Shown here: positions 1,716 to 45,006 of the stretch, piece after piece | Numbering within the stretch: position 1 is the first letter of the stretch | Layout of the letters: each line of letters starts with the position of its first letter | Made by a program: the position numbers and the translations under genes | Notes under the pieces: generated by a model | Seen by the model: only the letters and a program-made list of their open reading frames with translations | Told to the model about the DNA's origin: nothing | The model's database searches: none | Origin: Flavobacterium sp. 9R | GTDB lineage: Bacteria > Bacteroidota > Bacteroidia > Flavobacteriales > Flavobacteriaceae | Assembly (NCBI RefSeq): GCF_902506345.1 | Contig: NZ_LR733413.1 | Span: 2,069,892 to 2,133,891 of the forward strand | DNA: 64,000 nucleotides | Reading direction: 5' to 3'

Positions 1716-1792
1716 AGTCCTGATAGGAACGGCATCCTCTTGTCTTGTCCTTACAACAAGACAAGAGATATAGTGGATAGCAGGAACCCCTG
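1716..1792 (+). repeat. Intergenic structured element, family E, copy 1
   Basis: The conserved 5' flank AGTCCTGATAGGAACGGCAT and 3' flank ATAGTGGATAGCAGGA enclose a 12-bp perfect stem (CTCTTGTCTTGT 1737-1748, ACAAGACAAGAG 1756-1767). The flanks recur at 10476, 14138, 18769 and 44932 around stems of unrelated sequence. This resembles the structured intergenic RNA/DNA elements common in Flavobacterium, possibly the Rfam flavo-1 class. That assignment is from memory. Confidence 0.75.
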
Positions 1793-1868
1793 ATGACTGA
1801 AAAAGCCTTTTGTTGGCTCTCCTTCTATTTAATTTTTGCTAAATAATAACCGTAGACTGCAATTATTT

Positions 1869-2017
1869 TTAACCACATAGAAACATAGAATTTTTTAGTT
1901 TTTAAAAAGAACTCAATAGACGTTTTACTATTCACATAGTCAATCTATGTGAAAAATATAGCTATTTCTATAGGTTCTTAAATTATTGAAAGTAAATCTA
2001 TGTTTCTATGTGGTTAA
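1869..2017. repeat. 149-bp palindromic (MITE/REP-like) element
   Basis: The outer arms form a 21-bp perfect inverted repeat (1869-1889 and 1997-2017, beginning TTAACCACATAGAAACATAG). A second perfect 9-bp inverted repeat is nested at 1931-1953 (TTCACATAG / CTATGTGAA). Between them is an imperfect pair, AAGAACTCAATAG and CTATAGGTTCTT. The interval has no open frame and could fold as one long hairpin or cruciform. The TTAA termini and nested symmetry suggest a small non-autonomous mobile element or a REP-type sequence. Confidence 0.75.
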
Positions 2018-2075
2018 TTTTTTATTATATTTTGAATTTCACCTAACGGTTTTAATAATACTATTTCAATTCTGA

Positions 2076-5000
2076 TTAAAAATAAGCTCTTAACTGCACA
2101 TTGCCGGTGTGAATGGCTGGACTGGTTTCGCTTTTTCGGCCTTGGTAGTTGAAATTAATGTCGAGAAATTGGGTGATGTTTTTTTGCAATAATACACGCC
2201 AAGTAAGGTTTTGACCGGTTTGTAAGCCTTCGAGCATTTGGAAACCTACGGCCGACTGTGCATTGCCATCGAATTGATTTTGATAAAAAGAGAGTTCGCC
2301 GTTGAGGGTGAATTTGGCATTGCGCGCATAACTAAATGCGGTTCCCAATCGGTTTTGTTGCAAGGTTTCGGCTTGTGCGAGTTGGTTTTCTTTGTGTTGA
2401 AATTCGTAAAACAATTCCCAACTGGCGTTTTTAGAAAATAAATAGCTGATTTTTGGAGCGATTTGATAGCCTTTGATGTCGAAATTTTTCTCAGCATAAT
2501 TTTCGGAAACCACGGCGGTAGCCAATGTTTTGGTAAAGAAGTTCAGCAGCCAACTTTTTTGAAACAAATGTTGGTATTGTAATTGGTGTGAGGCATTGCT
2601 GTTTTCCTGTGAGCCATTGGACAATAAACTCTTGGATTTGTTTTGCAAATAGGTGTAAGTGACCGAGTGTTTTTGTTTGCCTCGATTGAAAAATAAACTG
2701 TTTCTGAAGACGGAGTTGAGTCCCAAAACATCATCCTTCGGGCTTCCAAATGGATTCAAATCGAAGTTCCCGCCTTCGTTTTTAATTTTTCGGTCCATAA
2801 TAAACGAGGTTTGGTTGTAGAAATAGGAGGCTATTTTTTTGATTCCTTTTTCGTTTTGCCATTGGTTTGGGTTAATGATTAGGGATTGCGAAAACTTATT
2901 TTGATGGGTTTTGATAAAGATTTGGTTGGGCAAAAACACACGAATGTATTTGGCCAAATCGGGATAAGGCGCAATCTCGAATTCTTGTAATTCTTGAATG
3001 CCGTTGCCGTTGTAATCGTTCCAAGCATAGACACCTTGCCCCGCATTGACTTCTAAAAAAGTGAATTCTTGTTGGGCAATCGAACCCGAATTGGTTTCAT
3101 AGGCCGTGGTGCTTTGTACCAATTGTTTCCAAAAACGGTCGTTGTAGACCACTCTCGAATTGAGTGACGGTTCTTTTTGGGCTGAATTATTGGTGTATTC
3201 TAGGACACGATAATTAGCAAAAACAGACAAATCGCTTTTGGCAGTTTGAAAAACTTTCGATTTTAAACTGAAGGTCTGCGAGTGGTTGACGCGTTGTAAG
3301 ACGCCATTTTGAATACTGTCGTTGACTCTTTGCAAATATCCCAAAGCGACAAAGACTTTGGTACTATCGCCGCGACCCGCAAATCCTCCTATCTCTGAAA
3401 AACGCTGACTGATGGGAGTGAACGTTTGGGTACTTTTGATTTTTTCTTGGTTGTCTTCTAAACGGAAGGTTGCTCCCACCCAATTTTTCTTTTTGTGAAA
3501 ACGGACTTGCGTTTGTTGGCGAATAAAATTAGAAGTGCTCAATAAATTATCGCTTTTGAGTACGCTAGTCTGGTTTTGAAAACGCCAATTCGGAAGCTGG
3601 AAGTGCGCCATTATGCGGTGTTTTTGCCCAGAAAAAGAATCGGTAAAATCTAATTTTTCCAGTTGATAAGACGCATTGCCTTTTAACGCTCCTTTGTAGT
3701 TTGGGTTCCATTCGCTTTGGATTCCTGCAGTCCAAAAGCTTTGGTTACCAGTGGTTGTGGTACCCAAATTCCAATCTCGATTGAATTCGATGTTGAACAA
3801 GCGTTCAACCGTTTTGAAACTTTCGGCTATGTATTGGTAATTGCCTATGAAATCCAAATTCCATTTTCCGGTAAACAAGCGTTGTTTGGTGTTGAGTTTT
3901 GCGGCTAATCCTTTGTTTTGATTGTCATCAAGACTCGAAAACAAGTTTTGGTCGTTGTTGCTCACGCCAATTTCAAAATCAGTACTGCTTTTTTCATTTG
4001 GATGGTATTGCCCTAAAAAGGTGGCGATTTGTATTTTTTTGGGAGCAATGAGCGGAATTGTAGGCTCATATTCTCCTTGTAAAATCCCGTTGATGGGCGC
4101 TATGTATTCGTAAATTCGGCCAATGGCTCCAGCGTTTTTTAGAATATAATTTCCTTGATTTGGACCTATTTTGCTGAACCGAACATTGTACAAAACGGCT
4201 TGGTCATTGGTGGAAAATTCAAAGTATTCAATGCCATTGGCACTTTTTTTCTCGTACAAGATTTTGTTTTCAGAATACGAATCTTCATAGGCCGATGGCG
4301 CATTCATTTTGCTTGGGTCGTTGCCTGCATTTTGTAAAATGGCGACTTGTTCTTTGGACAAACTTTGCTGTACGGGTTGGTTTTTCAAGTCGCTTTCGGA
4401 ATACAAATAACTACCAAAACGCCAGTTTTTGTTCTCGTGCATTCCACCTCCATAGGCAACAATTCGGGTGTAATTTTGGTCTGTAAATTGGTATTCGACT
4501 ACAATCCGCATTTCGGAAGTGATGGTGAATAAAGGTGTAAAGACCAACTCACCCGCGTTGTAATCCATCACATAATCGTTGTTTTCACCACGTTTTAGCA
4601 AATTGCCATTGACATACACACGCTCTGAACCCGAAACAATCAATACGTAGGCTTCTTCATTATTGCCTTTGAGTTTATAAGGACCTTGATTGCCTTCTTG
4701 ACCAATAAACGCACTTCTGGCATATTGTCCTCGGACCAAACCAACAGCAGCCTCGATTTTGGTGTGTTTTTCGGTGTTGCCCCAATCGAATTGGGTGCTC
4801 AAACCCTGTACTTTTTTGTTGAAATTCATAAACTGAGACGTTCGATTTTCTAAAAACAAATCGCCTCCGCGGACTCTCCAATCTTTGCTGTACAATTCCA
4901 TAAAAATATTATCAAACTGATCCAGTCTTTGCGAATAGCCTCCGTCTTGTAGCGGAATATTGCTGTCTTGAATTGAGGCGCTAATACTGACTTTGTCAGA

Positions 5001-5525
5001 GAGTTTACCGCTGATTTGCAGATCCAAATTCGAGTTGAGCACCGCGTTTTGATTGTTGCCCACTGTCACCCCACGCGTGATGCTTCCAGAGGTATTGAGC
5101 CCATCAAAAGGCGTTGTTTTTTTGGGATTTGTCTCTGCCATTTGATATAAAGTACCCTTCAGCGCTTCGTTGTTGACCACTAAGCTGTCCGAGTAGACTT
5201 GATAGGTTTTCGTTAAAAAATCGGGATACTTTAGGTACTGAACCGTTAGTTCTTCGGTGGTAAGTTGCGAAAGGGAATGTAACAGCAAATAGCCTTTTTC
5301 AAAATTCACGCTGTAGTTTGTGGTGGGAAGTGTCTCTTTTTTGTCGGTTGTAATTTTAAAAAAACTCGGATTGATACTTGTTTTTTCTAACCAAATGGTA
5401 TCGGTAGTAACGCGGATTTTTTTAGTGCGATAGGACGATTGATTTTCCTGCGCGTAGACGCCAGAAAGCCAAAAGAAGACTCCAAGAAGCACAATTTTAT
5501 TCCACATAGCTACGATAACGTCCAA
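2076..5525 (-). CDS. Large outer-membrane beta-barrel-like protein, function unknown
   Basis: The 1149-residue product has a signal peptide. The in-frame ATG at 5507 (MWNKIVLLGVFFWLSGVYAQ) gives the cleaner signal sequence and is probably the true start. Residues about 150-260 carry GSITRGVTVGNNQ and LSDKVSISASIQDSNIPLQ, which resemble parts of SprA-like and other large Bacteroidota surface proteins. After about residue 550 the sequence alternates polar and aromatic residues, as in barrel strands, and it ends with an aromatic-rich C-terminus (NVQLRAYF). A calcium-loop-like stretch (AWNDYNGNGIQELQEFEIA) is seen near residue 840. No family with a known function was recognised. It is a single-gene unit. 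Confidence 0.6.
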   Translation of the reverse strand: MDVIVAMWNKIVLLGVFFWLSGVYAQENQSSYRTKKIRVTTDTIWLEKTSINPSFFKITTDKKETLPTTNYSVNFEKGYLLLHSLSQLTTEELTVQYLKYPDFLTKTYQVYSDSLVVNNEALKGTLYQMAETNPKKTTPFDGLNTSGSITRGVTVGNNQNAVLNSNLDLQISGKLSDKVSISASIQDSNIPLQDGGYSQRLDQFDNIFMELYSKDWRVRGGDLFLENRTSQFMNFNKKVQGLSTQFDWGNTEKHTKIEAAVGLVRGQYARSAFIGQEGNQGPYKLKGNNEEAYVLIVSGSERVYVNGNLLKRGENNDYVMDYNAGELVFTPLFTITSEMRIVVEYQFTDQNYTRIVAYGGGMHENKNWRFGSYLYSESDLKNQPVQQSLSKEQVAILQNAGNDPSKMNAPSAYEDSYSENKILYEKKSANGIEYFEFSTNDQAVLYNVRFSKIGPNQGNYILKNAGAIGRIYEYIAPINGILQGEYEPTIPLIAPKKIQIATFLGQYHPNEKSSTDFEIGVSNNDQNLFSSLDDNQNKGLAAKLNTKQRLFTGKWNLDFIGNYQYIAESFKTVERLFNIEFNRDWNLGTTTTGNQSFWTAGIQSEWNPNYKGALKGNASYQLEKLDFTDSFSGQKHRIMAHFQLPNWRFQNQTSVLKSDNLLSTSNFIRQQTQVRFHKKKNWVGATFRLEDNQEKIKSTQTFTPISQRFSEIGGFAGRGDSTKVFVALGYLQRVNDSIQNGVLQRVNHSQTFSLKSKVFQTAKSDLSVFANYRVLEYTNNSAQKEPSLNSRVVYNDRFWKQLVQSTTAYETNSGSIAQQEFTFLEVNAGQGVYAWNDYNGNGIQELQEFEIAPYPDLAKYIRVFLPNQIFIKTHQNKFSQSLIINPNQWQNEKGIKKIASYFYNQTSFIMDRKIKNEGGNFDLNPFGSPKDDVLGLNSVFRNSLFFNRGKQKHSVTYTYLQNKSKSLLSNGSQENSNASHQLQYQHLFQKSWLLNFFTKTLATAVVSENYAEKNFDIKGYQIAPKISYLFSKNASWELFYEFQHKENQLAQAETLQQNRLGTAFSYARNAKFTLNGELSFYQNQFDGNAQSAVGFQMLEGLQTGQNLTWRVLLQKNITQFLDINFNYQGRKSETSPAIHTGNVQLRAYF

Positions 5526-5540
5526 TGTTCAAAAGTAGTA

Positions 5541-5590
5541 TTTAATAGTGAATGGCAGTTAGTAATTAGTGAATAGTGCTTCGTAATTAG
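5541..5590. repeat. Degenerate phrase-like repeat
   Basis: The interval contains imperfect reiterations of TTAGTAATTAG / TAGTGAATAGTG. Similar phrases occur near 10631-10684, 27815-27840 and 43440-43463, always between genes. Confidence 0.4.
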
Positions 5591-5799
5591 ATAGATTTTG
5601 GTAGTGAAGAATTATAATTAGATTGGTGAATTAAGGTTGAAGAGTACTGTTCTTTCGATTTTTGAGCTTGGATTTGTAGGAATTAATGGTATATTTGGTT
5701 AGCAAATAAAGTTTGTTAAGCTAAAATTCTAATCTAGCATCATAATTTGAATCTTGAAATTGAATGAGATGCAAAAAATAATTTCATCCAATAATAGTT

Positions 5800-6270
5800 A
5801 TGAAAAAAATATTTCCTATTCTAATTGTCGTATTGATTACTACGGGCTTTATAAGTAATTCTGATAAAGTTGATTTAAAAACTTTTGCTGAAGAAGCAAT
5901 GAATAAATCTAAAATTGGTGCTAATCCTACAATTGTAATTACCGAATATTCAGCCAAAATTTATTCAAAAATTGATTTGAAACATTCTGTTTTTAGAAAT
6001 TTAAAAAGAGAAGGTTTGTTTATTATAAATAAGAATTCTGATTTGTTGGAAGAATTGTATGGTGAAGAAACTAAAAGAAATGGAGCAATTGTTTATATGA
6101 ATGCTCATAATCCTAAGCCAAATTTGAAACAATTGAGAATAGTTTTGAACGGTAAAGAAATTCCCAAATCTGTTTCAGATACTTTAAAATTAAATAACAT
6201 TCAAGGTTTTGTTTGCCTTAAGAAAAGAGATACAGAAAAGTACATCGGCTATATTAATACACTGGATTAG
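5800..6270 (+). CDS. Secreted protein of unknown function
   Basis: The 156-residue product has an N-terminal hydrophobic signal segment (MKKIFPILIVVLITTGFIS). The rest is soluble and contains no motif I recognise. The C-terminal half (QLRIVLNGKEIPKS) weakly recalls the NG(K/R)EI phrases of TonB-plug or carboxypeptidase-regulatory-like proteins, but that is not enough to assign a family. It ends 28 bp before the CPBP protease gene and may share its transcript. Confidence 0.65.
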   Translation: MKKIFPILIVVLITTGFISNSDKVDLKTFAEEAMNKSKIGANPTIVITEYSAKIYSKIDLKHSVFRNLKREGLFIINKNSDLLEELYGEETKRNGAIVYMNAHNPKPNLKQLRIVLNGKEIPKSVSDTLKLNNIQGFVCLKKRDTEKYIGYINTLD

Positions 6271-6298
6271 TTTCAAAACGAACTCATTAAACCATTTT

Positions 6299-7000
6299 AT
6301 GTTTTTCAATTTATTTACTGTTTTTAATCCTTCTGAAGAAAGTTACGAGTCTTATGATTGGAAGGCAAAAATCAAAAACCTTTTGTTGTCTTATTGCTAT
6401 ATGTATTTAGCAATCATACTAAGTGCTATTTTTTTGCTAAGACCACTAGACTATTTAGTTACCGACATATTGGGTTTTCCCTCTATAATGGAGGCAATAG
6501 GAAAATCTAGTGATAGGATTGCTACTATTTCTTTTTGGTTTGTTGTCATAATAATACCAATAATCGAAGAGATTTTATTTCGCCTTTTTTTGAATTTCAA
6601 GAAAAAGGAAATTTGCCTTAGTGTATTTTTTATGTTGCTGTTGGCATTAGGAATTCGGGTTACTAGTGATGCGTTGTTTTTGCTTTCTACTTGGGTAAAG
6701 GTTGGAATTTCGCTTTCGGTTGTTGTAGTGCTGTATTTTTTTGTAATTGACAACATCAAGTTTTCAATTCGTTTACAAAGAAGCCTAACGATAGTTTCAA
6801 TAATAACATTTGGTCTGATGCATATTGATAACTTAGAAAAGATATATTATTCTTTACTATTGATTTACCCATTCTTTGTTCTTCCACAAATGTTGATTGG
6901 TTATTTTGCTACTAATTTGAGATTGAAACAAGGTTTTGTATGGGGATTACTGCTGCATAGTATGACTAATTTGACTTTTTTTCTGCTGCATAAAATATAA
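6299..7000 (+). CDS. CPBP (CAAX/Rce1-like) family intramembrane metalloprotease
   Basis: The 233-residue product is mostly hydrophobic with six to eight predicted membrane helices. The three family motifs are present: EExxxR (E90, E91, R95 in IIEEILFR), FxxxH (F171 to H175 in FGLMH) and HxxxN (H220, N224 in HSMTN). These line the active site of the type II CAAX prenyl endopeptidase/bacteriocin-processing family. The frame is open upstream to 6209, but ATG 6299 lies just after the previous gene's stop and starts a plausible cytoplasmic N-terminus, so it is preferred. The substrate is unknown. It is followed after 4 bp by DUF2200, so the two are probably co-transcribed. Confidence 0.85.
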
Positions 7001-7004
7001 TACT

Positions 7005-7367
7005 ATGGCACATCCTAAAAATTATGAACGCGTTTTTGCAATGACTTTTGCGAGTGTTTATCCGCATTATTTAGCCAAAGTCCTCAAAAAAAATCACACC
7101 CAAGAAGAACTTGATACCATTATTTGTTGGCTAACAAGGTATACACCACAAGCCTTGCAGCATCAAATGGAAACGAAAGTAGATTTTGAAACTTTTTTTG
7201 CCCAAGCACCTCAATTGCACCCGAACGCTAGCCAAATTACTGGAGTGATTTGTGGCTATCGTGTTGAAGACATCGAACACCCGTTGATGCAGAAAATTCG
7301 CTATTTAGATAAATTGGTCGATGAGTTGGCCAATGGAAAAGCTATGGAGAAGATTTTGAGGAGTTAG
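7005..7367 (+). CDS. DUF2200 family protein
   Basis: This 120-residue cytoplasmic protein matches the DUF2200 pattern: [15 protein letters not shown], then [26 protein letters not shown], and the C-terminal [20 protein letters not shown]. The length is normal for the family. Its biochemical function is unknown. It lies 4 bp after the CPBP protease and ends before a shared bidirectional terminator. Confidence 0.85.
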
Positions 7368-7412
7368 CAAGCGAACTGTTTTAGTAATTAATGCGATTTA
7401 TTTTCAATAAAA

Positions 7413-7447
7413 AAAGACCATTTTAAAATAATTTCAAAATGGTCTTT
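7413..7447. terminator. Bidirectional intrinsic terminator
   Basis: A perfect 12-bp stem (AAAGACCATTTT 7413-7424, AAAATGGTCTTT 7436-7447) is flanked by A-run and T-run. It serves the converging DUF2200 (+) and aspartokinase (-) genes. Confidence 0.9.
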
Positions 7448-7454
7448 TTCGTTT

Positions 7455-8714
7455 TTATAAAGTCTCTTTGGTGATGATTTGCATCGTTTCACGACTGACT
7501 TGTTTGAGCAAGACAATCTTATTTTCTTCTACCAATTTAGCGGCTTGGTCGTTAAAATGACGAATGGTGTACAAGGTCACATCTTCGTTAAACTCTACTT
7601 TGAATTTCTTAGAGAGTTTAGCATTCAATTCCCCGAAATTCCCGAATTTGTCTTCCACGCAAACCGAGAAACTAATCGCCGAGTTTTGAATCAAGTTCAC
7701 TTTGATTTTGTACTTATGGAACAAAGCAAAGATTTCACTAATGTTTTCCTCCATAATGAAAGAAAAATCAATAGACGAAAGTGAAATCATCAACTGATTG
7801 CGTTTTACGATAAAACAAGGCATTTTAGGCTCCAAGTCGGGACCTTTTGCAACAGCGGTTCCTTTTAATAATGGGTTTACAAATGATTTTACGAACAAAG
7901 GAATTTCCTTTTTCTGTAAAGGTTGTAAGGTTTTTGGGTGAATTACCGTGGCGCCGTAAAAAGCTAATTCAATCGCTTCACGATACGAAATCTGATTCAA
8001 CAAACTTGCATTTTCAAAATACCTTGGGTCGGCATTCATTACGCCAGGAACGTCTTTCCAAATCGTTACGCTTTCGGCGTTCAAGCAATAGGCAAAAATA
8101 GCCGCAGTATAATCCGATCCTTCTCTTCCTAAAGTGGTCGTAAAGTTATTTTCATCCGATCCCAAAAATCCCTGAGTGATGTTTAGGCTTTTTGATTTAA
8201 TAGTTTTGGTAATGTTCTTTTTAGTTTGATCCCAATCTACTTCGGCATCACGATAGTTGGAGTTGGTTTTTACCAAATTGCGTACATCTACCCATTGCGT
8301 TTCTATGCCCATAAAGCTCATAAAATGACTCAAAATAGTAGTCGAAATCAATTCTCCAAAACTCACGATTTGATCGTACACAAAATTGTAATTCGGCGAT
8401 TTGTTGTGTGCTAAGAAATATTCTAAGTCGGCAAACTGAGCATTTACCGCTTCAAAAACGGGATGACTTTCATCTTCGAACAAATCCAAAACAATTTGGT
8501 TATGGTACTTTTTTACTTCTTGTACTGAAGAATTCAATTCAGCTGATTTATCAAAATAGTTCTTGATGACTTCTTCTAAAGCATTGGTGGTTTTTCCCAT
8601 TGCAGAAACCACTAATAATACATCTTCATACCCAACGGTTTTCAATACGTGGTGTACATTTTTTATTCCTTCGGCATCTTTAACAGATGCACCTCCAAAT
8701 TTAAATACTCTCAT
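7455..8714 (-). CDS. lysC: Aspartate kinase (monofunctional)
   Basis: The 419-residue enzyme phosphorylates aspartate, the first step toward lysine, threonine and methionine. The N-terminal KFGGASVKD is the kinase lysine/phosphate-binding signature. TTLGREGSDYTAA and VTIWKDVPGVMNADPR are the nucleotide- and aspartate-binding segments. The C-terminal about 120 residues have the ACT regulatory fold pattern (LISLSSIDFSFIMEENISEIF...VNLIQNSAISFSVCVED). There is no homoserine dehydrogenase extension. The gene symbol is by function, since paralogues such as thrA-type kinases occur in this group. It stands 68 bp downstream of the GNAT gene on the same strand. Confidence 0.9.
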   Translation of the reverse strand: MRVFKFGGASVKDAEGIKNVHHVLKTVGYEDVLLVVSAMGKTTNALEEVIKNYFDKSAELNSSVQEVKKYHNQIVLDLFEDESHPVFEAVNAQFADLEYFLAHNKSPNYNFVYDQIVSFGELISTTILSHFMSFMGIETQWVDVRNLVKTNSNYRDAEVDWDQTKKNITKTIKSKSLNITQGFLGSDENNFTTTLGREGSDYTAAIFAYCLNAESVTIWKDVPGVMNADPRYFENASLLNQISYREAIELAFYGATVIHPKTLQPLQKKEIPLFVKSFVNPLLKGTAVAKGPDLEPKMPCFIVKRNQLMISLSSIDFSFIMEENISEIFALFHKYKIKVNLIQNSAISFSVCVEDKFGNFGELNAKLSKKFKVEFNEDVTLYTIRHFNDQAAKLVEENKIVLLKQVSRETMQIITKETL

Positions 8715-10444: not shown

Positions 10445-10475
10445 GAGCGAAACAGTAGGCATTTTCAGCAAACAA

Positions 10476-10544
10476 GGTTCCTGCTCTCCGCTATATCTTT
10501 TGGGGCGAACCCAGCCCCAAAAGGATGCCGCTGCGATCAGGGCT
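10476..10544 (-). repeat. Intergenic structured element, family E, copy 2
   Basis: Read on the minus strand it has AGCCCTGATCGCAGCGGCAT, then a 9-bp stem (plus-strand TTTTGGGGC / GCCCCAAAA) and GATATAGCGGAGAGCAGGAA. The same flanks as at 1716 and 14138 surround an unrelated stem. It lies between converging genes fbp and the TerB-like gene. Confidence 0.75.
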
Positions 10545-10579
10545 ATAAGAAAAACAATTCGCTTCTTTGTAAGCATAAA

Positions 10580-10615
10580 AAAACCGGTAGCTGTAAAAAG
10601 CCACCGGTTTTCTGT
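10580..10615 (+). terminator. fbp terminator
   Basis: The stem AAAACCGGTAGCT (10580-10592) pairs with AGCCACCGGTTTT (10599-10611) with one mismatch. The loop is short and T-rich sequence follows. Confidence 0.75.
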
Positions 10616-14110: not shown

Positions 14111-14137
14111 ATGTTATTAAAATAGCTATTTCTGGCT

Positions 14138-14204
14138 AGCCCTGATGGTAGTGGCATCCTTTGCTGCCGTGGTTCGGCGGGAAAGATATAACGAACAGCA
14201 GGAG
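14138..14204 (+). repeat. Intergenic structured element, family E, copy 3
   Basis: AGCCCTGATGGTAGTGGCAT precedes an imperfect stem CTTTGCTGCCG / CGGCGGGAAAG, followed by ATATAACGAACAGCAGGA. It lies between converging genes (S41 protease and gldD). Confidence 0.75.
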
Positions 14205-14250
14205 GATTCGTAATTGAAAAATCTAATTGTTGTGCTCCAAAAAAAAAAAA

Positions 14251-17161: not shown

Positions 17162-18715
17162 ATGTACAGCGTGAATAAAGAACTAATTATTCGTTCTAGT
17201 TCAGAAGCCGTAGATTTTGCCTTATTAAAAGATGGAAAACTAATTGAATTACACAAAGAACAAGAAACTAGCAACTTTCAAGTAGGTGATATTTTTATTG
17301 CCAAAATAAGAAAACCAGTTGCAGGCTTAAATGCTGCTTTTGTAAATGTAGGCTATGAAAAAGATGCCTTTTTGCATTATCATGACTTAGGTCCTAATCT
17401 TGCTTCTCAATTGAAATTCATAAAACTTGTAAGCGCAGGTAAAATAAAAGATTTCTCCCTAAAAAACTTTCAGTTTGAAAAAGAGATTGATAAAGACGGC
17501 ACCATTACTGATGTTTTGAATGCCAATCAATCCGTATTAGTACAAGTAGTAAAAGAGCCTATATCTACCAAAGGACCAAGAATTAGTGCAGAACTATCCT
17601 TGGCTGGACGTTTTATAGTGCTTGTTCCTTTTTCTGATCGCGTTTCTATTTCTCAAAAAATAGAAGACAAAAAAGAAAAAGATCGATTAAAAAAACTTGT
17701 ACAATCCATCAAACCAAAAGGCTTTGGCGTTATTGTTCGTACAGTAGCCGAAGGCAAAAATACAGCCGAATTAGAAAAAGATTTGCATAACCTGCTTAGC
17801 AGATGGAATGCAATGTGTAAGAAATTACCAACTGCTCATCATCCGTCAAAAGTATTAGGTGAGCTCAATAGAGCCTCTTCAATTCTTCGAGACGTGTTTA
17901 ATGATACCTTTAGTGGTATTCAAATAGATGATGAAGAGTTGTACCAACAAACAAAGGATTACTTGCAAGAAATTGCACCATCCAAACAATCAATCGTAAA
18001 GTTTTATCAATCGAAAGACACACCAATCTTCGAGAAATATAACATAGAGAGACAAATCAAAACATCTTTCGGGAAAACGGTTTCCATGAGTAAAGGTGCC
18101 TATTTGATAATAGAACATACTGAAGCACTTCACGTTATAGACGTAAATAGCGGTAATCGTTCGAATAAGGCTACCAATCAAGAAGACACCGCAATGGAAG
18201 TAAATATGATAGCCGCTGCCGAAATCGCAAGACAATTGCGTTTGAGAGATATGGGCGGAATCATAGTTGTTGATTTTATTGATATGGCTAATCCCGATAA
18301 TCGTAAAGTCTTATTCGACTTCTTAAGAGAAGAGATGAGCGATGATAAAGCTAAACACAAGATCTTGCCTCCTAGTAAATTTGGATTAGTTCAAATTACT
18401 AGACAAAGAGTAAGACCAGAAGTCAATATCAAAACTAGAGAAGAAGATCCAAACAATGAAAATGGCGAAATTGAAGCGCCAATTCAAATCATTGATAAAA
18501 TCGCTCTCGACCTTGAAAGACATCTAAAAAACCACAAAAAAGTAGTACTCAATGTACATCCCTTTGTGGCTGCATACCTCAGTAAAGGTTTTCCATCATT
18601 GCGTTCAAGATGGTTTTTTGAACACAAAAAGTGGGTGAAAATTATACCACGTGACGCTTACACGTACCTAGAATACCATTTCTATGACAAAAAAGGAAAT
18701 GTTATTACAGACTAA
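17162..18715 (+). CDS. rng: Ribonuclease G/E family endoribonuclease
   Basis: The 517-residue protein has an N-terminal S1 domain (GDIFIAKIRKPVAGLNAAFVNVGYEKDAFLHYHDLG). Its DNase I-like catalytic domain shows the two Mg-binding aspartate motifs HVIDVNSG and VVDFIDMA. The length is that of RNase G, without the long scaffold tail of RNase E. The ATG at 17162 is the nearest to the conserved N-terminus NKELIIRSSSEAVDFALL. It functions in rRNA maturation and mRNA decay. A terminator follows at 18723. Confidence 0.93.
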   Translation: MYSVNKELIIRSSSEAVDFALLKDGKLIELHKEQETSNFQVGDIFIAKIRKPVAGLNAAFVNVGYEKDAFLHYHDLGPNLASQLKFIKLVSAGKIKDFSLKNFQFEKEIDKDGTITDVLNANQSVLVQVVKEPISTKGPRISAELSLAGRFIVLVPFSDRVSISQKIEDKKEKDRLKKLVQSIKPKGFGVIVRTVAEGKNTAELEKDLHNLLSRWNAMCKKLPTAHHPSKVLGELNRASSILRDVFNDTFSGIQIDDEELYQQTKDYLQEIAPSKQSIVKFYQSKDTPIFEKYNIERQIKTSFGKTVSMSKGAYLIIEHTEALHVIDVNSGNRSNKATNQEDTAMEVNMIAAAEIARQLRLRDMGGIIVVDFIDMANPDNRKVLFDFLREEMSDDKAKHKILPPSKFGLVQITRQRVRPEVNIKTREEDPNNENGEIEAPIQIIDKIALDLERHLKNHKKVVLNVHPFVAAYLSKGFPSLRSRWFFEHKKWVKIIPRDAYTYLEYHFYDKKGNVITD

Positions 18716-18768: not shown

Positions 18769-18852
18769 AGGAGCTATTTCCAGCTATCCGTTACAATCTT
18801 ATATGCCGAACACCGGCACATAAGGATTTTCACTACTATCTGGGCTAGGGCT
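18769..18852 (-). repeat. Intergenic structured element, family E, copy 4
   Basis: On the minus strand AGCCCTAGCCCAGATAGTAG precedes a 10-bp stem with one mismatch (plus strand TTATATGCCG / CGGCACATAA). GATTGTAACGGATAGCTGGA and AATAGCTCCT follow. This copy is more diverged than the others. It lies between converging rng and tadA. Confidence 0.7.
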
Positions 18853-18865: not shown

Positions 18866-19309
18866 TTACTTTCTTTTCTCTGCAAAAAATCGCTTCATCA
18901 AATCGGCTGCTTCTTCTGCTAAAACACCTCTGACTACAGTAGTTTTGGGATGCAATTGAGTACCCATTTTTTCATACCCACGGTGCGTATCACTAGCCCC
19001 AAAAACAATTTTAGCAATTTGACTCCAATACAAAGCCCCTGCGCACATTTGGCAAGGTTCTAAAGTCACATACAAAGTACAATCTTTTAAATATTTTCCG
19101 CCCAAGAAATTGGCAGCTGCAGTTATAGCTTGCATTTCGGCGTGGGCCGTAACATCGTTGAGTAATTCGGTCAAATTATGGGTGCGAGCAATGACTTTGT
19201 CGGCCACAACAATAACGGCTCCCACAGGAATTTCACCTTTGTCAAAAGCCATTTCAGCTTCTTGCAAAGCTTTTTTCATAAAATATTCGTCGGTGAAAGG
19301 ATCTATCAT
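18866..19309 (-). CDS. tadA: tRNA-specific adenosine deaminase
   Basis: The 147-residue zinc deaminase has the motifs TAHAEMQAI (His ligand and catalytic Glu) and PCQMCAGAL (Cys ligands). The N-terminal FMKKALQEAEMAFDKGEIPVGAVIV and the C-terminal RGVLAEEAADLMKRFFAEKR are typical of TadA, which makes inosine at the wobble position of tRNA-Arg(ACG). A guanine-deaminase-type role is less likely. It is divergent from dxs. A small palindrome (CCCGC-CATA-GCGGG, 19320-19333) lies between the two starts. Confidence 0.9.
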   Translation of the reverse strand: MIDPFTDEYFMKKALQEAEMAFDKGEIPVGAVIVVADKVIARTHNLTELLNDVTAHAEMQAITAAANFLGGKYLKDCTLYVTLEPCQMCAGALYWSQIAKIVFGASDTHRGYEKMGTQLHPKTTVVRGVLAEEAADLMKRFFAEKRK

Positions 19310-37442: not shown

Positions 37443-37448
37443 TCTTTT

Positions 37449-39818: not shown

Positions 39819-40157
39819 ATTTTGGAGGCCAATAAGTTAGCGAACTCATTCTTTTTGTTGCCTTCTAAAATACTAAATTAGAACAAGAAACAAACGTTCT
39901 TCTTTTGTTAAAGTTTTGAGTGCTTGATGGTTGATGAATCTTGGTGTTTTTTATAATCAATTTCTTTTGGTTAAAAGAAATTGAAAAGGTTTCTTAGAAA
40001 AAAGTATTGGAAAAGGAAACCCTCACAGTACAACTGAATTTAGTTCAGTTTTCTGCAAGGGTTTGTTTGTAGTCTAAGTGATTTGGAAAAGTTTACTCAA
40101 AAGTTGCGTTTTCCTGAAAACAAGTTATTTATAATATCCTAAAATAGAAATGATAAT
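39819..40157. other. Gene-free interval with an elongated terminator-like hairpin
   Basis: The 339-bp gap between two minus-strand genes has no credible frame. At 40017-40063 AAACCCTCACAG and TGCAAGGGTTT surround a second hairpin (ACTGAA 40033-40038, TTCAGT 40044-40049). The outer arms share their sequence with the terminators at 41656 and 43408. Confidence 0.55.
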
Positions 40158-40505
40158 TTACTGTTGGTCAAGTTTTTTAGTCATTGTAAAACCAATAAAT
40201 AATGCGGCACCAGCCATTGTGAAAATAGTTGCAGGATATAATGCGCTTTCATTTAAGGAAGTGTATGTCGAAAGTAACAATGCTATAAATACGCCTATAC
40301 CTATACCCATAAGTAATAATGCCAAGTTTAAAAGTATTATTTTTGAAAATGAGGTTGAGCTTTTATCTCTGCCCATAAAAATGCTTGCATCAATACCTTT
40401 TTCGATAAGTGCCAAACGTTCTTTGTTTCTTGTTGATAGATAAAGGTAAATAATACCGAAAATTGCTAAGAACAAGCTGATTGGAATTAAAATTTCTGCG
40501 ATCAT
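40158..40505 (-). CDS. DUF6249-type membrane protein
   Basis: The ATG at 40505 (MIAEILIPISLFLAIFGIIYLYL) gives 115 residues with three hydrophobic segments. A short conserved-looking cytoplasmic part, STRNKERLALIEKGIDASIF, is the DUF6249 pattern. It is divergent from the ECF sigma gene and preceded by a mirror-image ECF-type promoter, so it is probably a target of that sigma factor. Function unknown. Confidence 0.75.
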   Translation of the reverse strand: MIAEILIPISLFLAIFGIIYLYLSTRNKERLALIEKGIDASIFMGRDKSSTSFSKIILLNLALLLMGIGIGVFIALLLSTYTSLNESALYPATIFTMAGAALFIGFTMTKKLDQQ

Positions 40506-40547
40506 AATTTTTTTGATTTTAAATTGATTAATGTATTTGTTAGCTAT

Positions 40548-40573
40548 GACGACGCTGTTTAAGATTAGGTTAC
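40548..40573 (-). promoter_or_regulatory. ECF-type promoter of the DUF6249 gene
   Basis: On the minus strand GTAACC (40573-40568) and GTCGTC (40553-40548) are separated by exactly 14 bp. The predicted start is about 36 nt from the gene's ATG. It is the same motif and spacing as the promoter of the divergent sigma gene. Confidence 0.65.
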
Positions 40574-40608
40574 ACATTTTTTGAAAAAAATATTTCTTGC
40601 GTTTTATT

Positions 40609-40634
40609 GTAACCTATAGCAAAGACTTGTCGTC
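40609..40634 (+). promoter_or_regulatory. ECF-type promoter of the sigma factor gene (autoregulation)
   Basis: GTAACC at 40609-40614 and GTCGTC at 40629-40634 are separated by 14 bp, typical of -35 (AAC) and -10 (CGTC) boxes of ECF sigma factors. The predicted start lies only about 5 nt before ATG 40645, so the mRNA would be almost leaderless. Confidence 0.65.
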
Positions 40635-40644
40635 TGATGTAAAT

Positions 40645-41235
40645 ATGAACAGTTTTAAAGAGCAATACTATATTACTAAAATCCTCGAAGGTGACTCGAA
40701 TGCATTTGCTGTATTGGTCGATCAATACAAAGATTTGGTCTTTTCGTTGTCTTTGAAAATGCTTAAAAATAGGGAAGAAGCCGAGGAAGCTGCTCAGGAT
40801 ACTTTTGTAAAAGTGTTTAAGTCACTTAATAATTTTAAAGGGGATTCAAAATTTTCAACTTGGATTTACAAAGTAACTTATAATACTTGTTTAGATCAAC
40901 TCAAAAAGAACAAAAGAGTGCAGGATACGATTCCGATAGATGATTTTTCTGAGAATCAAATACAAAACTTAGAAAATGTTTTGGATGCTATCGATGAAAG
41001 AGATCGAAATAAAATGATTCAGGATTGTATTCATTTGTTGCCGAGCGAAGAAGCTTTTTTATTGATCTTGTTTTATTTTGAAGAACAATCTTTGGAGGAA
41101 ATTTCAAAGATTATAGATTGTACTGCCAATAATGTTAAAGTGAAACTTTATAGAAGCAGAAAAAAAATTGCTTCTATTTTAAAAATGCGTTTAGAACCCG
41201 AAATACTTGAATGTTATGGAAGCAAACGAAAATAA
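40645..41235 (+). CDS. ECF RNA polymerase sigma factor
   Basis: The ATG at 40645 (MNSFKEQYYITKILEGDSNAF) gives 196 residues. An in-frame TTG at 40597 would precede the promoter boxes and is rejected. Region 2 is seen in FAVLVDQYKDLVFSLSLKMLKNREEAEEAAQDTFVKVFKSL and FKGDSKFSTWIYKVTYNTCLDQLKK. Region 4 is in LLPSEEAFLLILFYFEEQSLEEISKIIDCTANNVKVKLYRSRKKI. The downstream membrane protein overlaps its end by 20 bp. Confidence 0.92.
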   Translation: MNSFKEQYYITKILEGDSNAFAVLVDQYKDLVFSLSLKMLKNREEAEEAAQDTFVKVFKSLNNFKGDSKFSTWIYKVTYNTCLDQLKKNKRVQDTIPIDDFSENQIQNLENVLDAIDERDRNKMIQDCIHLLPSEEAFLLILFYFEEQSLEEISKIIDCTANNVKVKLYRSRKKIASILKMRLEPEILECYGSKRK

Positions 41236-41620
41236 AGACCTAGAAAAATTAGTAGATAAGATGATGAGTGATCTAACTTTAGAATCACCTTCTATTGATT
41301 TTACTTCAAAAGTAATGGCTCAAGTTGCGGCAACAAAAGTAAGTGAGGTTACTTTGTATAAACCTTTAATTCCAAAATCAATATTTATAGCTGTTTTTGG
41401 ATTTACTTGTTTGTTGACAATTTATCTTTCTATTTATGGTGAAACGACACCCGAAAGTTGGTTGAATTTTATTAACTACGAAAAGTTATTCAATACTAGA
41501 TTATTGAAAGGATTTACAATTTCTACAATTTCGATGTATGCTATTGTGGCTTCTACAGTTATGTTTTGTATTCAAATAGGTTTTTTAAAAAATTACTTTA
41601 ACAAACGAATTGGAGTTTAA
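41216..41620 (+). CDS. Membrane protein, putative anti-sigma partner
   Basis: The 134-residue product from ATG 41216 has an acidic N-terminal region (MEANENKDLEKLVDKMMSDL) and two membrane segments (about 62-82 and 108-130). The overlap with the sigma gene is the usual arrangement for an anti-sigma factor. However, no zinc-binding HxxxCxxC motif is present. The anti-sigma role is inferred from position only. Confidence 0.7.
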   Translation: MEANENKDLEKLVDKMMSDLTLESPSIDFTSKVMAQVAATKVSEVTLYKPLIPKSIFIAVFGFTCLLTIYLSIYGETTPESWLNFINYEKLFNTRLLKGFTISTISMYAIVASTVMFCIQIGFLKNYFNKRIGV

Positions 41621-41655
41621 ATTATTTTATTGTTGAAATTGCCCAAAAAACAACA

Positions 41656-41679
41656 AACCCTCACAGTAATGTGAGGGTT
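41656..41679. terminator. Hairpin terminator between the sigma operon and the YoeB module
   Basis: AACCCTCAC (41656-41664) and GTGAGGGTT (41671-41679) make a perfect 9-bp stem with a 6-nt loop. It is positioned for both converging transcripts. Confidence 0.75.
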
Positions 41680-41733
41680 AATATATGCGCTATTTGATTT
41701 GGGTAAGGTTACCTTGTGTTGAAATTTAAATAG

Positions 41734-42015
41734 TTATTTGTCATTATAATGTCCTAAAGCAGAAATGATAATCACTACTACTTCGTGGTCAATAATTTCA
41801 TAAATTAATCGGTCTTTTTTGTTAATTTGTCTAGACCATACATTTTCGGTTTTGTATTTAAGTTTTTCAGGCTTACCAATTCCAGTTGTTGGATGTATTT
41901 CTAATTCCAGAAATATCTTTTCAATTTTTGAAATATCTGTTTTTTTACCTGACTTTTTTATTTTAGATAAATCAGCAAGGGCTTCTTTGCTTATTTCTAT
42001 TGTATATCTGCCCAT
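41734..42015 (-). CDS. Txe/YoeB family toxin
   Basis: The 93-residue RelE-superfamily protein has the YoeB/Txe signature HPTTGIGKPEKLKYKTENVWSRQINKKDRLIYEI and the terminal ALGHY. The C-terminal GHY provides the catalytic His/Tyr of the YoeB ribosome-dependent mRNA interferases. The gene overlaps the antitoxin gene by 19 bp. Confidence 0.9.
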   Translation of the reverse strand: MGRYTIEISKEALADLSKIKKSGKKTDISKIEKIFLELEIHPTTGIGKPEKLKYKTENVWSRQINKKDRLIYEIIDHEVVVIIISALGHYNDK

Positions 42016-42221
42016 ATATTTTTGGCATCTACTTTGGTGTAGTTTTCTTCTCTGTAGGTAGCATCTTGAAAATTTTTATGATGTTTTTCTAACCTTTCGA
42101 TTATCTCGGGATTTGTAATTTCATTATTTTGCTCAATTACTTCCACATCAAATGCTTTCAAAATTTTTTTGATGATGGCAATTTGAGAAATGTCTTTTAT
42201 GTTTACCGTTAATGTAGTCAT
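41997..42221 (-). CDS. Antitoxin partner of the YoeB-like toxin (DUF2683-like)
   Basis: The 74-residue protein begins MTTLTVNIKDISQIAIIKKILKAFDVEVIEQ, like small DUF2683-type antitoxins, and has a charged C-terminus (EENYTKVDAKNIWADI) suited to wrap the toxin. It is not a classic YefM/Phd-type antitoxin by sequence. Confidence 0.75.
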   Translation of the reverse strand: MTTLTVNIKDISQIAIIKKILKAFDVEVIEQNNEITNPEIIERLEKHHKNFQDATYREENYTKVDAKNIWADIQ

Positions 42222-42293
42222 TTTGATAAGTAATCAATTAAGATACAAAGATATAGAATATTTGAACTTATTGTTGTTTGTTTGATTGTTAAA

Positions 42294-42326
42294 AAAACTC
42301 CTAGACTTGGAAAGAATAGGAGTTTT
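42294..42326 (-). terminator. Terminator of the XRE operon
   Basis: AAAACTCCTA (42294-42303) and TAGGAGTTTT (42317-42326) form a perfect 10-bp stem. The A-run at 42291-42297 becomes the U-run on the minus strand. Confidence 0.82.
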
Positions 42327-42355
42327 GGTGTTTTGAGATTTCGAAAAAAGTATTT

Positions 42356-42670
42356 TTACTGATTAATTAATTCTTCTTGCTCAGTTCCAAACACTTTTAC
42401 CAAGAAATCTTTTATTGAAGGAGCGAGCATTTTGTATAGTTCAATTTTATTTTCGGGGACATCTTTTTCAGATATTGTCAAGAAATAAACAATTGCTTTT
42501 GGGACTTCTAAAGCTTCACAAATTTTTTCCAATGTTTCTGGGTTTGGTTCATAAACACCATTGATAATTTGTGATAATGCAGTTGGGCTTTTTCCAATTT
42601 TTTTAGAAAGTTCAATTTGTGTAATTCCTTTTTTCTTAATAATTGAACTAATTACTTCTCCTATTTTCAT
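42356..42670 (-). CDS. XRE-type helix-turn-helix regulator
   Basis: The 104-residue protein has the HTH at about 12-60 (IIKKKGITQIELSKKIGKSPTALSQIINGVYEPNPETLEKICEAL). The C-terminal tail is acidic and helical. It heads no visible target gene, but two small unknown genes lie directly upstream in the same direction, so it is probably part of a three-gene accessory cassette. Confidence 0.88.
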   Translation of the reverse strand: MKIGEVISSIIKKKGITQIELSKKIGKSPTALSQIINGVYEPNPETLEKICEALEVPKAIVYFLTISEKDVPENKIELYKMLAPSIKDFLVKVFGTEQEELINQ

Positions 42671-42685
42671 AATTTAATTTTATTG

Positions 42686-42865
42686 TCAAAAGAAATCAGA
42701 TATTATTTTTATTAAACAAGCAATAATCTCCAAAATTTTTAATTCTGTTTTGGCATTCGTTAATTCTTCTTTAATTTCTGATAATAATTTTTTATTTTCT
42801 TCTGATGTTTTTTCTGAAGCAATAGCTTCATTTATTTTTTCTATTATATGTTTCATCTGTTTCAT
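42686..42865 (-). CDS. 59-residue coiled-coil-like protein
   Basis: An open frame from ATG 42865 to TGA 42686-42688 encodes 59 residues starting MKQMKHIIEKINEAIASEKT. Heptad-like Leu/Ile spacing (NKKLLSEIKEELTNAKTEL) is followed by a hydrophobic C-terminal segment (KILEIIACLIKIISDFF) that may be a membrane tail. It lies 15 bp before the XRE gene. Function unknown; it fits a small membrane-tethered or toxin-like peptide. Confidence 0.5.
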   Translation of the reverse strand: MKQMKHIIEKINEAIASEKTSEENKKLLSEIKEELTNAKTELKILEIIACLIKIISDFF

Positions 42866-42881
42866 TGTATTAATATTATAA

Positions 42882-42898
42882 TGAGGTGCTTTACCTCA
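42882..42898 (-). other. Short hairpin between cassette genes
   Basis: TGAGGT (42882-42887) and ACCTCA (42893-42898) pair. It lies between the stop of the 145-residue gene and the 59-residue gene start. No U-run follows, so it may be a processing or attenuator site. Confidence 0.35.
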
Positions 42899-42904
42899 CT
42901 AATC

Positions 42905-43342
42905 CTAATTAAATACAATAACTGAATGTGTGTCGTCTAAGTTTTTGAAATTGAAACAACAAATTTTTCTAATCTGTTCTCTTTTATTTTGTAATAATTT
43001 TTTTCTAAGATTATTTATGTTTTTTAAAACTCCGGATAATGATTTAAACGATTTCTTAGATATTTCAAAAAGTGTTCTATTTATATAGTAGTTGTATAAT
43101 TGTTTGCTAAAGTTTGCATTAAAAGTATTATCATTAGAGAAAAGAAGCTCTTCTAATTCTTTTAATGAAAGATTGTCTAAGTACTTTTTGGTAGCTAGCC
43201 AATCGTCTTCTTCATAGAACAGTTTTTTCAAAACATCCAAAGAAGACTGGATATCCTTAAAGCTATTTTCCATAGCTAAAACTATAGCGTCAATGCTTTT
43301 TTGAAGTTTAAATGTATTGATGTAGAATTTGGTATTATTCAT
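42905..43342 (-). CDS. Unknown helical protein of accessory cassette
   Basis: The 145-residue, Lys/Asn/Leu-rich product (MNNTKFYINTFKLQKSIDAI...) is predicted to be mainly helical and has no recognised domain. Its Asn/Lys-rich codon use differs from neighbouring core genes, suggesting later acquisition. It is first of a minus-strand trio with the 59-residue peptide and the XRE regulator. Confidence 0.65.
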   Translation of the reverse strand: MNNTKFYINTFKLQKSIDAIVLAMENSFKDIQSSLDVLKKLFYEEDDWLATKKYLDNLSLKELEELLFSNDNTFNANFSKQLYNYYINRTLFEISKKSFKSLSGVLKNINNLRKKLLQNKREQIRKICCFNFKNLDDTHSVIVFN

Positions 43343-43407
43343 AAATGATTAATTATTAAGCTAATTTAAGTAAAACTTAAATAACAACCAAATTATTTTA
43401 ATAAAAA

Positions 43408-43431
43408 AACCCTCACATTTCTGCAAGGGTT
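43408..43431 (-). terminator. ahcY terminator with GAAA tetraloop
   Basis: On the minus strand AACCCTTGCA and TGTGAGGGTT form a 10-bp stem, including two G-U pairs, capped by GAAA and followed by a U-run. It shares the AACCCTCACA arm with the hairpins at 40017 and 41656. Confidence 0.88.
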
Positions 43432-43439
43432 CTGAATTA

Positions 43440-43463
43440 TCACTAAGGACTAATTACTAAATT
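43440..43463. repeat. Phrase repeat at the ahcY stop
   Basis: TCACTAAGGACTAATTACTA resembles the phrase at 10645-10684. It runs into the stop codon of ahcY. Confidence 0.4.
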
Positions 43464-44778
43464 AGTATCTGTAATATTCTGGTTTGAATGGACCTTGAAC
43501 TTCAACACCAATGTATTCTGCTTGATCTTGACGTAAAGTCTCTAATTCAACACCTAATTTAGCTAAGTGCAACATCGCTACTTTTTCATCTAAATGCTTT
43601 GGTAACATATACACTTCATTTTTGTAAGCAGCACTGTTTTTCCACAATTCGATTTGAGCCAAAGTTTGGTTAGTAAATGAGTTACTCATTACAAAACTTG
43701 GGTGACCTGTAGCACAACCAAGGTTTACCAAACGACCTTCTGCCAAAATGATGATGTCATTACCGTTGATAGTATATTTGTCAACTTGTGGTTTGATTTC
43801 GATTTTTGAAGCGCCGTGGTTTTTGTTCAACCAAGCCATATCAATTTCGTTATCAAAGTGTCCGATGTTACAAACGATAGTTTTGTCTTTCATTTTTTCA
43901 AAATGAGAACCCAAAACGATGTCTTTGTTTCCAGTTGTAGTAATAATGATATCAGCTGTAGCGATAACAGTATCTAATTTTTTAACTTCAAAACCGTCCA
44001 TTGCAGCTTGCAAAGCACAAATTGGATCAATTTCAGTAACCGTTACAATAGATCCAGCACCTCTAAAAGAAGCAGCTGTTCCTTTTCCTACGTCTCCGTA
44101 TCCACAAACGATTACTCTTTTTCCAGCCAACATAATATCTGTAGCACGACGAACTGCATCAACAGCAGATTCTTTACAACCGTATTTGTTGTCAAATTTA
44201 GATTTAGTAACAGAGTCGTTTACGTTGATCGCTGGCATTGGTAATGTTCCCGCTTTTACTCTTTCGTATAATCTGTGAACACCAGTAGTGGTTTCTTCAG
44301 ACAATCCTTTGATTCCGGCAACCAATTCTGGGTAACGATCAATAACCATATTAGTCAAATCTCCACCGTCATCCAAAATCATATTCAATGGTTTTCTGTC
44401 TTCACCAAAGAACAACGTTTGCTCAATACACCAGTCAAAAGACTCTTCGTCAAGACCTTTCCAAGCATACACCTGAATTCCAGCAGCAGCAATAGCAGCA
44501 GCAGCCTGATCTTGAGTAGAAAAAATGTTACAAGAACTCCAAGTCACTTCAGCTCCAAGCGCAATCAAAGTCTCGATCAAAACTGCAGTTTGAATCGTCA
44601 TATGTAAACATCCTGCAATACGAGCTCCCTTCAAAGGTTGTTCGTCTTTGTATTCTGCACGAAGCGCCATCAAACCTGGCATTTCAGCTTCTGCTAATTC
44701 AATTTCTTTTCTTCCCCAAGCTGCTAAGGAAATGTCTTTCACTTTGTAAGCCACATAAGGCATAGTTGCTGTACTCAT
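43462..44778 (-). CDS. ahcY: Adenosylhomocysteinase (SAH hydrolase)
   Basis: The 438-residue enzyme splits S-adenosylhomocysteine to adenosine and homocysteine. It has the substrate-binding [14 protein letters not shown] and DDGGDLTNM and the catalytic [15 protein letters not shown]. The NAD-binding [21 protein letters not shown] and [13 protein letters not shown] also match. The C-terminus ends FKPEYYRY, matching the conserved KPDHYRY end. Length is normal. Confidence 0.97.
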
Positions 44779-44931
44779 TTATAGTATATTTGTATATTGA
44801 AATTTTTTGCAAATTTACGTAATAAGTTTAGAAATAAACGAATTTCTATAAGATTTGTGAATTGTTTAATTCCTTAAGCGTTAGAATTTTAAATGCCTTG
44901 TCAATTGCACATACAAAGTTGGTCAACTATA

Positions 44932-45006
44932 AGGAGCTAATCCTGCTGTCCACTATATCTTGTATGGCGAACCCCGCCATACAAGGATGCCGTTCCCATC
45001 AGGGCT
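44932..45006 (-). repeat. Intergenic structured element, family E, copy 5
   Basis: On the minus strand AGCCCTGATGGGAACGGCAT leads to an 11-bp stem (plus strand CTTGTATGGCG / CGCCATACAAG), then GATATAGTGGACAGCAGGAT and AGCTCCT. It is the only copy in a divergent (promoter-containing) gap, between ahcY and the phosphopantetheinyl transferase gene. Confidence 0.78.

Follow-up and report, generated by a model that had tools for sequence, protein, structure and literature searches.

Flavo-1 and the closest described systems

Flavo-1 has carried the label of a likely RNA from 2010 onward, when Weinberg et al. described it as "probably" RNA and "probably not" cis-regulatory (PMC2864571, in the parts covered), and the excerpts of the literature covered here give it no function. 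In this work we analyzed a 64,000-nucleotide stretch of the Flavobacterium sp. 9R genome (hereafter the window) and five intergenic hairpin elements within it, numbered 1 to 5 along the stretch, all of which are copies of Flavo-1 (Rfam RF01705). Together with their relatives in the rest of the genome (G000) and in other genomes, they lead us to think it probable that Flavo-1 is a repeat that keeps its basal stem and swaps its apical hairpin, likely by gene conversion, and ten copies of which are cut by an insertion sequence (IS) of the IS110 family whose aim at them by a bridge RNA is predicted. The name Flavo-1 was already known, whereas the stem exchange and the homing of an IS110 element are new here; in the portions of the open-licence literature covered, no paper turned up on Flavo-1 stem exchange or on an IS aimed at Flavo-1.

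The five window elements scored 63.8-75.4 bits with cmscan, all above the gathering score of 42, and align over the full length of the model (positions 1-76) with E-values of 1.3e-11 to 8e-15, which exclude chance similarity. An earlier annotation of the window, made from its letters alone (the initial annotation), had suggested that they were perhaps of the flavo-1 class, and this proved correct. Covariance-model searching matched RF01705 and recovered at least 146 copies in the 3.58-Mb genome (matches at E <= 0.001; a lower bound, with 150 candidates scored), 143 of which exceed the gathering score, as do the window copies. Compared with its RF01705 listing, Flavo-1 here behaves as an orientation-free repeat, and three features described below are absent from the Rfam model (76 positions): the AGC/GCT helix on the outside, the side arm, and the division into arm types. 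These data shift Flavo-1 toward a REP-like repeat.

Integron attC sites offer one parallel: they too have an imperfect, mismatched basal stem, a variable apical part and a single strand that folds, and they are also targeted by IS1111-type elements. Unlike them, Flavo-1 forms no cassette arrays, the median spacing between copies being 16 kb.

A REP family generally keeps its stem, whereas the apical stem of Flavo-1 varies and swaps between copies. Flavo-1 nevertheless works like REP in several respects: as in REP and REPIN elements (PMC3116915, in the part covered), it is a short hairpin, present in high copy number, intergenic and an IS110 target, and the folding of one strand fits as well. 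The link of those elements to RAYT transposases was not found for Flavo-1 in three Flavo-1-rich genomes and at 20 Y1 loci, one of which had a Flavo-1 nearby. The insertion at Flavo-1 resembles IS621, whose bridge RNA is directed to REP (PMC11208160, in the part covered), in its IS110 recombinase domains, in taking a repeated palindrome as target, and in having, within a non-coding end that forms a loop, guide-like stretches for both targets, left and right. It differs in that the target is Flavo-1, the shared core is GAT instead of CT, the bridge RNA is a prediction from sequence, and some relatives of the IS have other guides and other targets.

Stem exchange at orthologous sites

We extracted 146 copies from G000 and 100 from the sister species G069, the closest relative compared, and BLAST of the flanks yielded 85 orthologous pairs, 65 of them matched on both flanks. 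Stem identity was two-peaked, with 70 pairs at 0.85 or above and 15 lower (0.43-0.76). Mean identity of the 15 replaced stems was 0.63, compared with 0.57 for random own-G069 pairs; their 60-base flanks had median identities of 0.95 and 0.93, their basal parts 0.92 and 0.96, and both alleles form a hairpin in every case. Because the replaced stems are near-random while median flank identity is 93-95%, we read the stems as exchanged and not drifted. At orthologous sites the stem is thus either kept or replaced, as a whole or at its tip, still pairing and with its surroundings little altered. Copy 4 is an example, as in G069 the same genes and the same outer ends enclose an entirely different stem and inner flank. 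Nine of the 15 pairs were compared for their exchange boundaries: four had changed at the tip only, keeping 5-9 basal bases per arm, and in the other five the whole stem, or the stem with its inner flank, had changed. The boundaries vary, and no fixed cut is evident in these nine pairs.

Exchange can also be read within a single genome. In G000, 14 groups of identical stems account for 36 copies, and 7 or 8 of these groups mix arm types (8 by script, 7 without one mistyped copy), so that one and the same stem, in some cases down to a shared mispaired base, can be found under different outer arms. The stem TCTTGGGGCGGGGTTCGACCCAAGA, mispaired base included, is present in one copy of type A and one of type D, which points to copying and away from convergence. 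In the stretches examined, the loop motif GGGGTTCG occurred within Flavo-1 in 21 of 21 cases, and CCTGNCAGG-type arms of long stems lay outside Flavo-1 in 18 of 24; some stems may therefore derive from other palindromes.

The initial annotation had considered a mobile palindrome that exchanges its stem. The swap of stems at fixed sites was upheld (15 of 85 pairs), but movement of the whole element was not, because no clean empty site was found in the comparison with G069. Copy C1_2570660 is absent from that genome, where its place (L313) is filled by about 720 other bases with no Flavo-1 match, and two copies in L102 that stayed unmatched lack a close counterpart in it. Copy 5 falls outside this comparison, as a G069 contig starts at its site.

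The sites themselves are old. At the copy 5 site, in the divergent gap beside the S-adenosylhomocysteine hydrolase gene ahcY, Flavo-1 is present in 18 of 29 other-species loci (two of the 29, L305 and L310, are without the neighboring 4'-phosphopantetheinyl transferase, or PPTase, gene), in all 18 on the same strand and at a distance of 133-169 bases from ahcY; by eye, 16 different stems were read among them. Ten of 20 named loci carry it at this site, one of the 20 (L358) covering only 43 bases upstream. At the copy 4 site it is found in 11 of 28 other-species loci, again always on the same strand, with eight different stems; a weak match in L143 (44 bits) was excluded. The copy 3 site had no match in the 28 loci, whose flanks may fall short of it. 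The underlying loci were picked by best BLAST hit or by a protein scan, which biases these counts toward carriers.

A fold built on one strand

The initial annotation described constant flanks around unrelated stems. The flanks do recur in all five copies, but they are not strictly constant: they are the arms of an imperfect basal stem, with covarying base pairs inside a single genome. The quoted flank consensus fits copy 4 poorly (AGCCCAGATAGTAGTGAAAATCC ... GATTGTAACGGATAGCTGGAA), although copy 4 scores highest of the five. Nor are the stems wholly unrelated, as copies 2-5 have a common G/T-rich loop (GGGTT, TGGTT or GTGTT), with G-C closing in copies 3-5. The element is also larger than the initial annotation made it, as the hairpin is enclosed by an AGC/GCT helix on the outside and by a side arm at 3'.

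The layout expected of Flavo-1, an apical stem on top of a basal stem that internal loops interrupt, was recovered both in the pair counts and in the consensus folds. Counts were made on the 165 of 246 copies that could be parsed (81 escaped the pattern; both members of orthologous pairs are included). The basal N pair (GAT-N-G with GGA-N-AGC) is AT in 73, GC in 65, CG in 16, TA in 7 and other in 4; the outer fourth pair is CG in 97, TA in 49, AT in 13, GC in 4 and other in 2; the RY/RY pairs covary; and a basal mismatch is A.G in 130 copies and G.A in 34. Consensus folds were made by arm type, from 31 A, 84 B, 19 C and 7 D sequences. Types A-C have the outer AGC/GCT helix, which in B and C encloses a longer 3' side arm, and type D folds as a three-way junction with the basal CCC/GGG inverted to GGG/CCC. 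Simple patterns assign 29, 79, 24 and 14 copies of the own genome to types A-D (C1_1177682 is D-like but typed B), and sort the loops of the 146 copies into GNGTT (69), CTTT-type (35) and neither (42). REP elements bear a GTAG or CGTC tag at one end (PMC3733652, in the part covered); what was noted by eye in Flavo-1 is a TAG directly before the CCC foot in many type A-C copies.

The annotated strand alone is built to fold. In 166 distinct stems passing the pairing filter (1925 paired positions) there were 38 G.T/T.G mismatches versus 3 A.C/C.A (p = 1e-8), and 37 purine-purine mismatches versus 2 pyrimidine-pyrimidine (the test on the latter was run on 36 versus 2). A cruciform of double-stranded DNA gives no mismatch asymmetry, so the annotated strand appears to be selected as a single strand, whether RNA or DNA. 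The selection on structure argued in the initial annotation is thereby strengthened, because mutation that simply keeps a palindrome would give neither the G.T/A.C asymmetry nor the kept A.G/G.A pair. Its suggestion of a terminator-like element found no support: by inspection, no T-run follows the hairpin, the base of which reads CTTT...AAAG-GATAT or similar, and orientation to genes is random. More generally, covariation in a repeat family may come from exchange between copies, and compensated pairs within one genome are then not independent proof of an RNA function.

An IS110 insertion at Flavo-1

One insertion cuts ten of the 146 copies at a single position, represented by ten right ends and six left ends. 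All ten right ends read ...AAATCTAAAG and continue into GAT and then the second half of Flavo-1; all six left ends lie directly after ...TAGCCCCGAT, so that the left end of the insertion sits immediately 3' of GCCCCGAT. The right target is GATNGNAG at nine of the ten sites. A CGGG foot fitting the guide is present in all ten cut copies and in 76 of the 136 others (p = 0.006).

In the reading direction of the transposase, a stem-loop in the IS end contains CTTATGCCCCGATTAGG and CTCTTCGATC. By inspection, CTTATGCCCCGATTAGG shares GCCCCGATT with the left target, and CTCTTCGATC is the reverse complement of GATCGAAGAG, a near-match to the right target. With the left and right guides defined as in PMC11208160, the insertion is predicted to encode a bridge RNA that pairs with both sides of its Flavo-1 target. 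Of the 199 genomes of the genus, 16 carry the IS end, G000 among them. A homologous IS in G089 has an end 92% identical and a 332-amino-acid frame (L166) with the domains PF01548 (DEDD_Tnp_IS110) and PF02371 (Transposase_20). Its guide-like stretches are GCCCTGATT and CTCTTCTATC, and the host Flavo-1 copy reads AGCCCTGAT / GATAGAAG; relative to the own IS, guide and target are altered at matching bases. Homologues in G135 have different guide-like stretches and a different target sequence, with no Flavo-1 match there, and the bridge RNA seems to have been re-aimed between repeats within the genus.

Several further observations concern IS110 relatives and their surroundings. The guide-like stretch of the G135 relatives (L169, L182, L186, L189) matches GGTACTAC..., and G000 too has a form of that sequence, located upstream of copy C1_787593 (L059). 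Some Flavo-1 copies carry an insert of about 28 bases (TGCTTCGCCAGTTCGCTTCGCTCGTGTG or a remnant of it) directly after GAT, at the position where the IS110 inserts; carriers of this type are C1_241200 (L046), C1_123532 (L043) and G069 copies in L276 and L278. In G128 (L168, near 1620-1680) an IS110 end runs straight into the second half of a Flavo-1 stem, with neither the right target nor the first stem arm left, as after a deletion. A different IS110-family transposase gene, at 874-1905 in L114, is the sole PF02371 match in the G000 assembly.

The five copies of the window and their genes

The Flavo-1 copies and the genes that anchor them are as follows, in window coordinates:

1712..1791, + strand: Flavo-1 copy 1, long-armed type B (cmscan 63.8 bits)
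10473..10548, - strand: Flavo-1 copy 2, long-armed type B (73.0 bits)
14134..14209, + strand: Flavo-1 copy 3, long-armed, intermediate between types B and C (64.1 bits)
17162..18715, + strand: RNase E/G family gene adjoining copy 4, orthology anchor (PF10150)
18773..18850, - strand: Flavo-1 copy 4, short type A (75.4 bits, highest of the five)
18799..18823, - strand: apical stem of copy 4, TTATGTGCCGGTGTTCGGCATATAA, swapped along with the inner flanks in the comparison with G069
18866..19309, - strand: deaminase gene (MafB19-deam / dCMP_cyt_deam_1; PF14437, PF00383), ending just before copy 4
43462..44778, - strand: ahcY, on the same strand as copy 5 (PF05221, PF00670)
44935..45010, - strand: Flavo-1 copy 5, short type A, between the divergent ahcY and PPTase genes (70.6 bits)
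45075..45719, + strand: PPTase gene adjoining copy 5 (PF01648)

Both the strands and the gene contexts agree with the initial annotation, and the cmscan ends fall 1-5 bases from its own. Copy 1 is at a gene end, copies 2-4 are in convergent gaps (between FBPase and TerB-like, S41 peptidase and GldD, and RNase E-G and deaminase genes, respectively), and copy 5 is in the divergent gap between ahcY and the phosphopantetheinyl transferase gene. By analogy with the type B consensus fold, the arms of copy 1 extend from about 1675 on the 5' side to about 1822 on the 3' side, ending GGCTCTCC. Copy 1 has the same stem sequence in G069, and the stem-loops of copies 2 and 3 differ from their G069 orthologs by 1 and 3 bases. 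The protein adjoining copy 5 is 97% identical to its counterpart in F. succinicans DD5b, and the DNA there is 97.5% identical over 1109 bases and includes the same copy 5. Beside copy 2 (window 10549-10582; L145, about 4387-4674), G069 has about 290 additional bases, with a direct repeat of about 34 native bases around them and GGCTCCAGCTTTAGCTGGAG-type palindromes inside.

Copy number, orientation and distribution

Flavo-1 is intergenic and randomly oriented to its neighboring genes. No copy lies within an open reading frame (ORF) of at least 600 bases, shorter ORFs overlapping copies having been discarded. Between tandem genes, 42 copies are sense and 47 antisense (by a crude ORF call), and model scores of sense (33) and antisense (40) copies are equal (p = 0.90; type D and IS-cut copies excluded). 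A further 32 copies lie in convergent gaps and 18 in divergent gaps (p = 0.065), and 7 have one neighbor absent. There was no bias with respect to replication strand, with 73 leading and 66 lagging copies (dnaA at C1:239 kb; terminus assumed to be half-way round). The F. psychrophilum transcriptome study, in the part covered, likewise has Flavo-1 matches in both orientations and frequently outside transcribed regions, and several 5' transcribed regions that overlap them (PMC9723704).

In a sample of the same genus, 34 of 36 genomes had Flavo-1 matches; the exceptions, G018 and G020, are both 99% complete. Of the 296 genomes sampled across the phylum, 44 had matches; counted by genus, it was 22 of 139. 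Copy counts in both samples are floors, as filters were stricter and a limited number of candidates was scored. A phage vehicle was considered and set aside: one strict exact pattern gave no matches in viral contigs, though variants would escape it.

Proposed mechanism and alternative explanations

We infer that the replaced stems arise by gene conversion between copies, combined with selection on the strand-specific fold. The hairpin may provoke a break or a stalled fork, repair of which would be templated by another Flavo-1 copy through the short conserved flanks; unpaired outcomes would then be removed by selection. Our best guess is that, as with REP, the fold would be selected through a protein recognizing one strand by itself, be it DNA or RNA. 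The family provides two handles: stems that differ by one event each when near-identical genomes are compared, and an IS110 whose guide visibly matches the target variant.

A number of points count against this account. At about 20 bases, the conserved flanks offer little length for conversion of the RecA type, and we know of no Flavo-1-binding protein. Donors were not enriched: an identical stem elsewhere in the same genome was found for 4 of the 15 replaced pairs, and at identity of at least 0.92 a donor was found for 7 of the 15, versus 59% (own) and 53% (G069) of all copies. G069 is a draft of about 300 contigs, 87% complete; among the 15 pairs, C16_106, copy 4 and C1_1777461 were matched on a single flank, and C1_994210, C1_2375540 and C1_2184263 have a flank below 0.85. 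Four of the 11 other species with a copy 4 have one identical stem, so exchange is not constant everywhere, and the fact that 18 of 29 loci retain copy 5 with a constant strand leaves room for an RNA role. As for the insertion, one of the ten sites has a different right target (GATTATAG) and the two N positions vary, and the coding part of the own IS lies in assembly gaps, the transposase being read from the relative in G089.

The strongest competitor is that Flavo-1 is a transcribed structured RNA, an untranslated-region element or a small RNA, with a stem free in sequence so long as it pairs. The strand-specific fold would suit such an RNA, as would retention on one strand at the copy 5 (18/29) and copy 4 (11/28) sites and the overlap with several F. 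psychrophilum 5' transcribed regions (PMC9723704, in the part covered). We nonetheless regard it as rather unlikely, given that sense and antisense copies are about equal in frequency and preservation, and that the type A consensus has no conserved upstream block as a candidate promoter (no promoter scan was run). Alternatively, a Y1 (RAYT) transposase acting on a folded single DNA strand could move Flavo-1 as a REP-type element. Its high copy number, intergenic position, hairpin, patchy presence among species and strand-specific fold would all agree with this, as would its being an IS110 target, like E. coli REP for IS621 (PMC11208160, in the part covered). However, Y1_Tnp counts do not track Flavo-1 counts; the Flavo-1-rich genomes G004, G029 and G030 have no Y1_Tnp match; only 1 of 20 Y1 loci has a Flavo-1 neighbor (about 1.5 kb examined on each side); and a transposed copy would carry its own stem, whereas here the stem changes at a fixed site. 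We therefore rejected mobilization by RAYT as improbable. Similarly doubtful is a scheme in which the copies across the genome are sockets with interchangeable hairpin cassettes. An enzyme would recognize the basal stem as folded by one of the DNA strands and swap the hairpin between copies, a single-strand cassette exchange of a novel type, and the IS110 would home to the same place; the variable boundaries speak against the fixed cut of a dedicated swapping enzyme.

Two explanations would account for the stems without exchange between copies. Pairing might be kept by mutation itself, through template switching in the hairpin that copies arm onto arm (quasipalindrome correction), a process known in yeast (PMC3820800, in the part covered). 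This would explain compensated single changes and perfect palindromes, but it would erase the G.T and A.G/G.A pairs that are in fact kept, predicts no strand asymmetry, and can neither yield an entirely new stem nor place one mispaired stem at two separate loci; we give it little credence. The replaced stems might also be assembly chimaeras in G069, which is fragmented and whose Flavo-1 flanks share words of about 20 bases. This we consider very improbable, since chimaeras would repeat existing stems, and 11 of the 15 pairs are without an identical stem elsewhere in the same genome. Moreover, the stems of copies 4 and 5 differ among separate assemblies as well, including the single-contig G010, G036 and G074.

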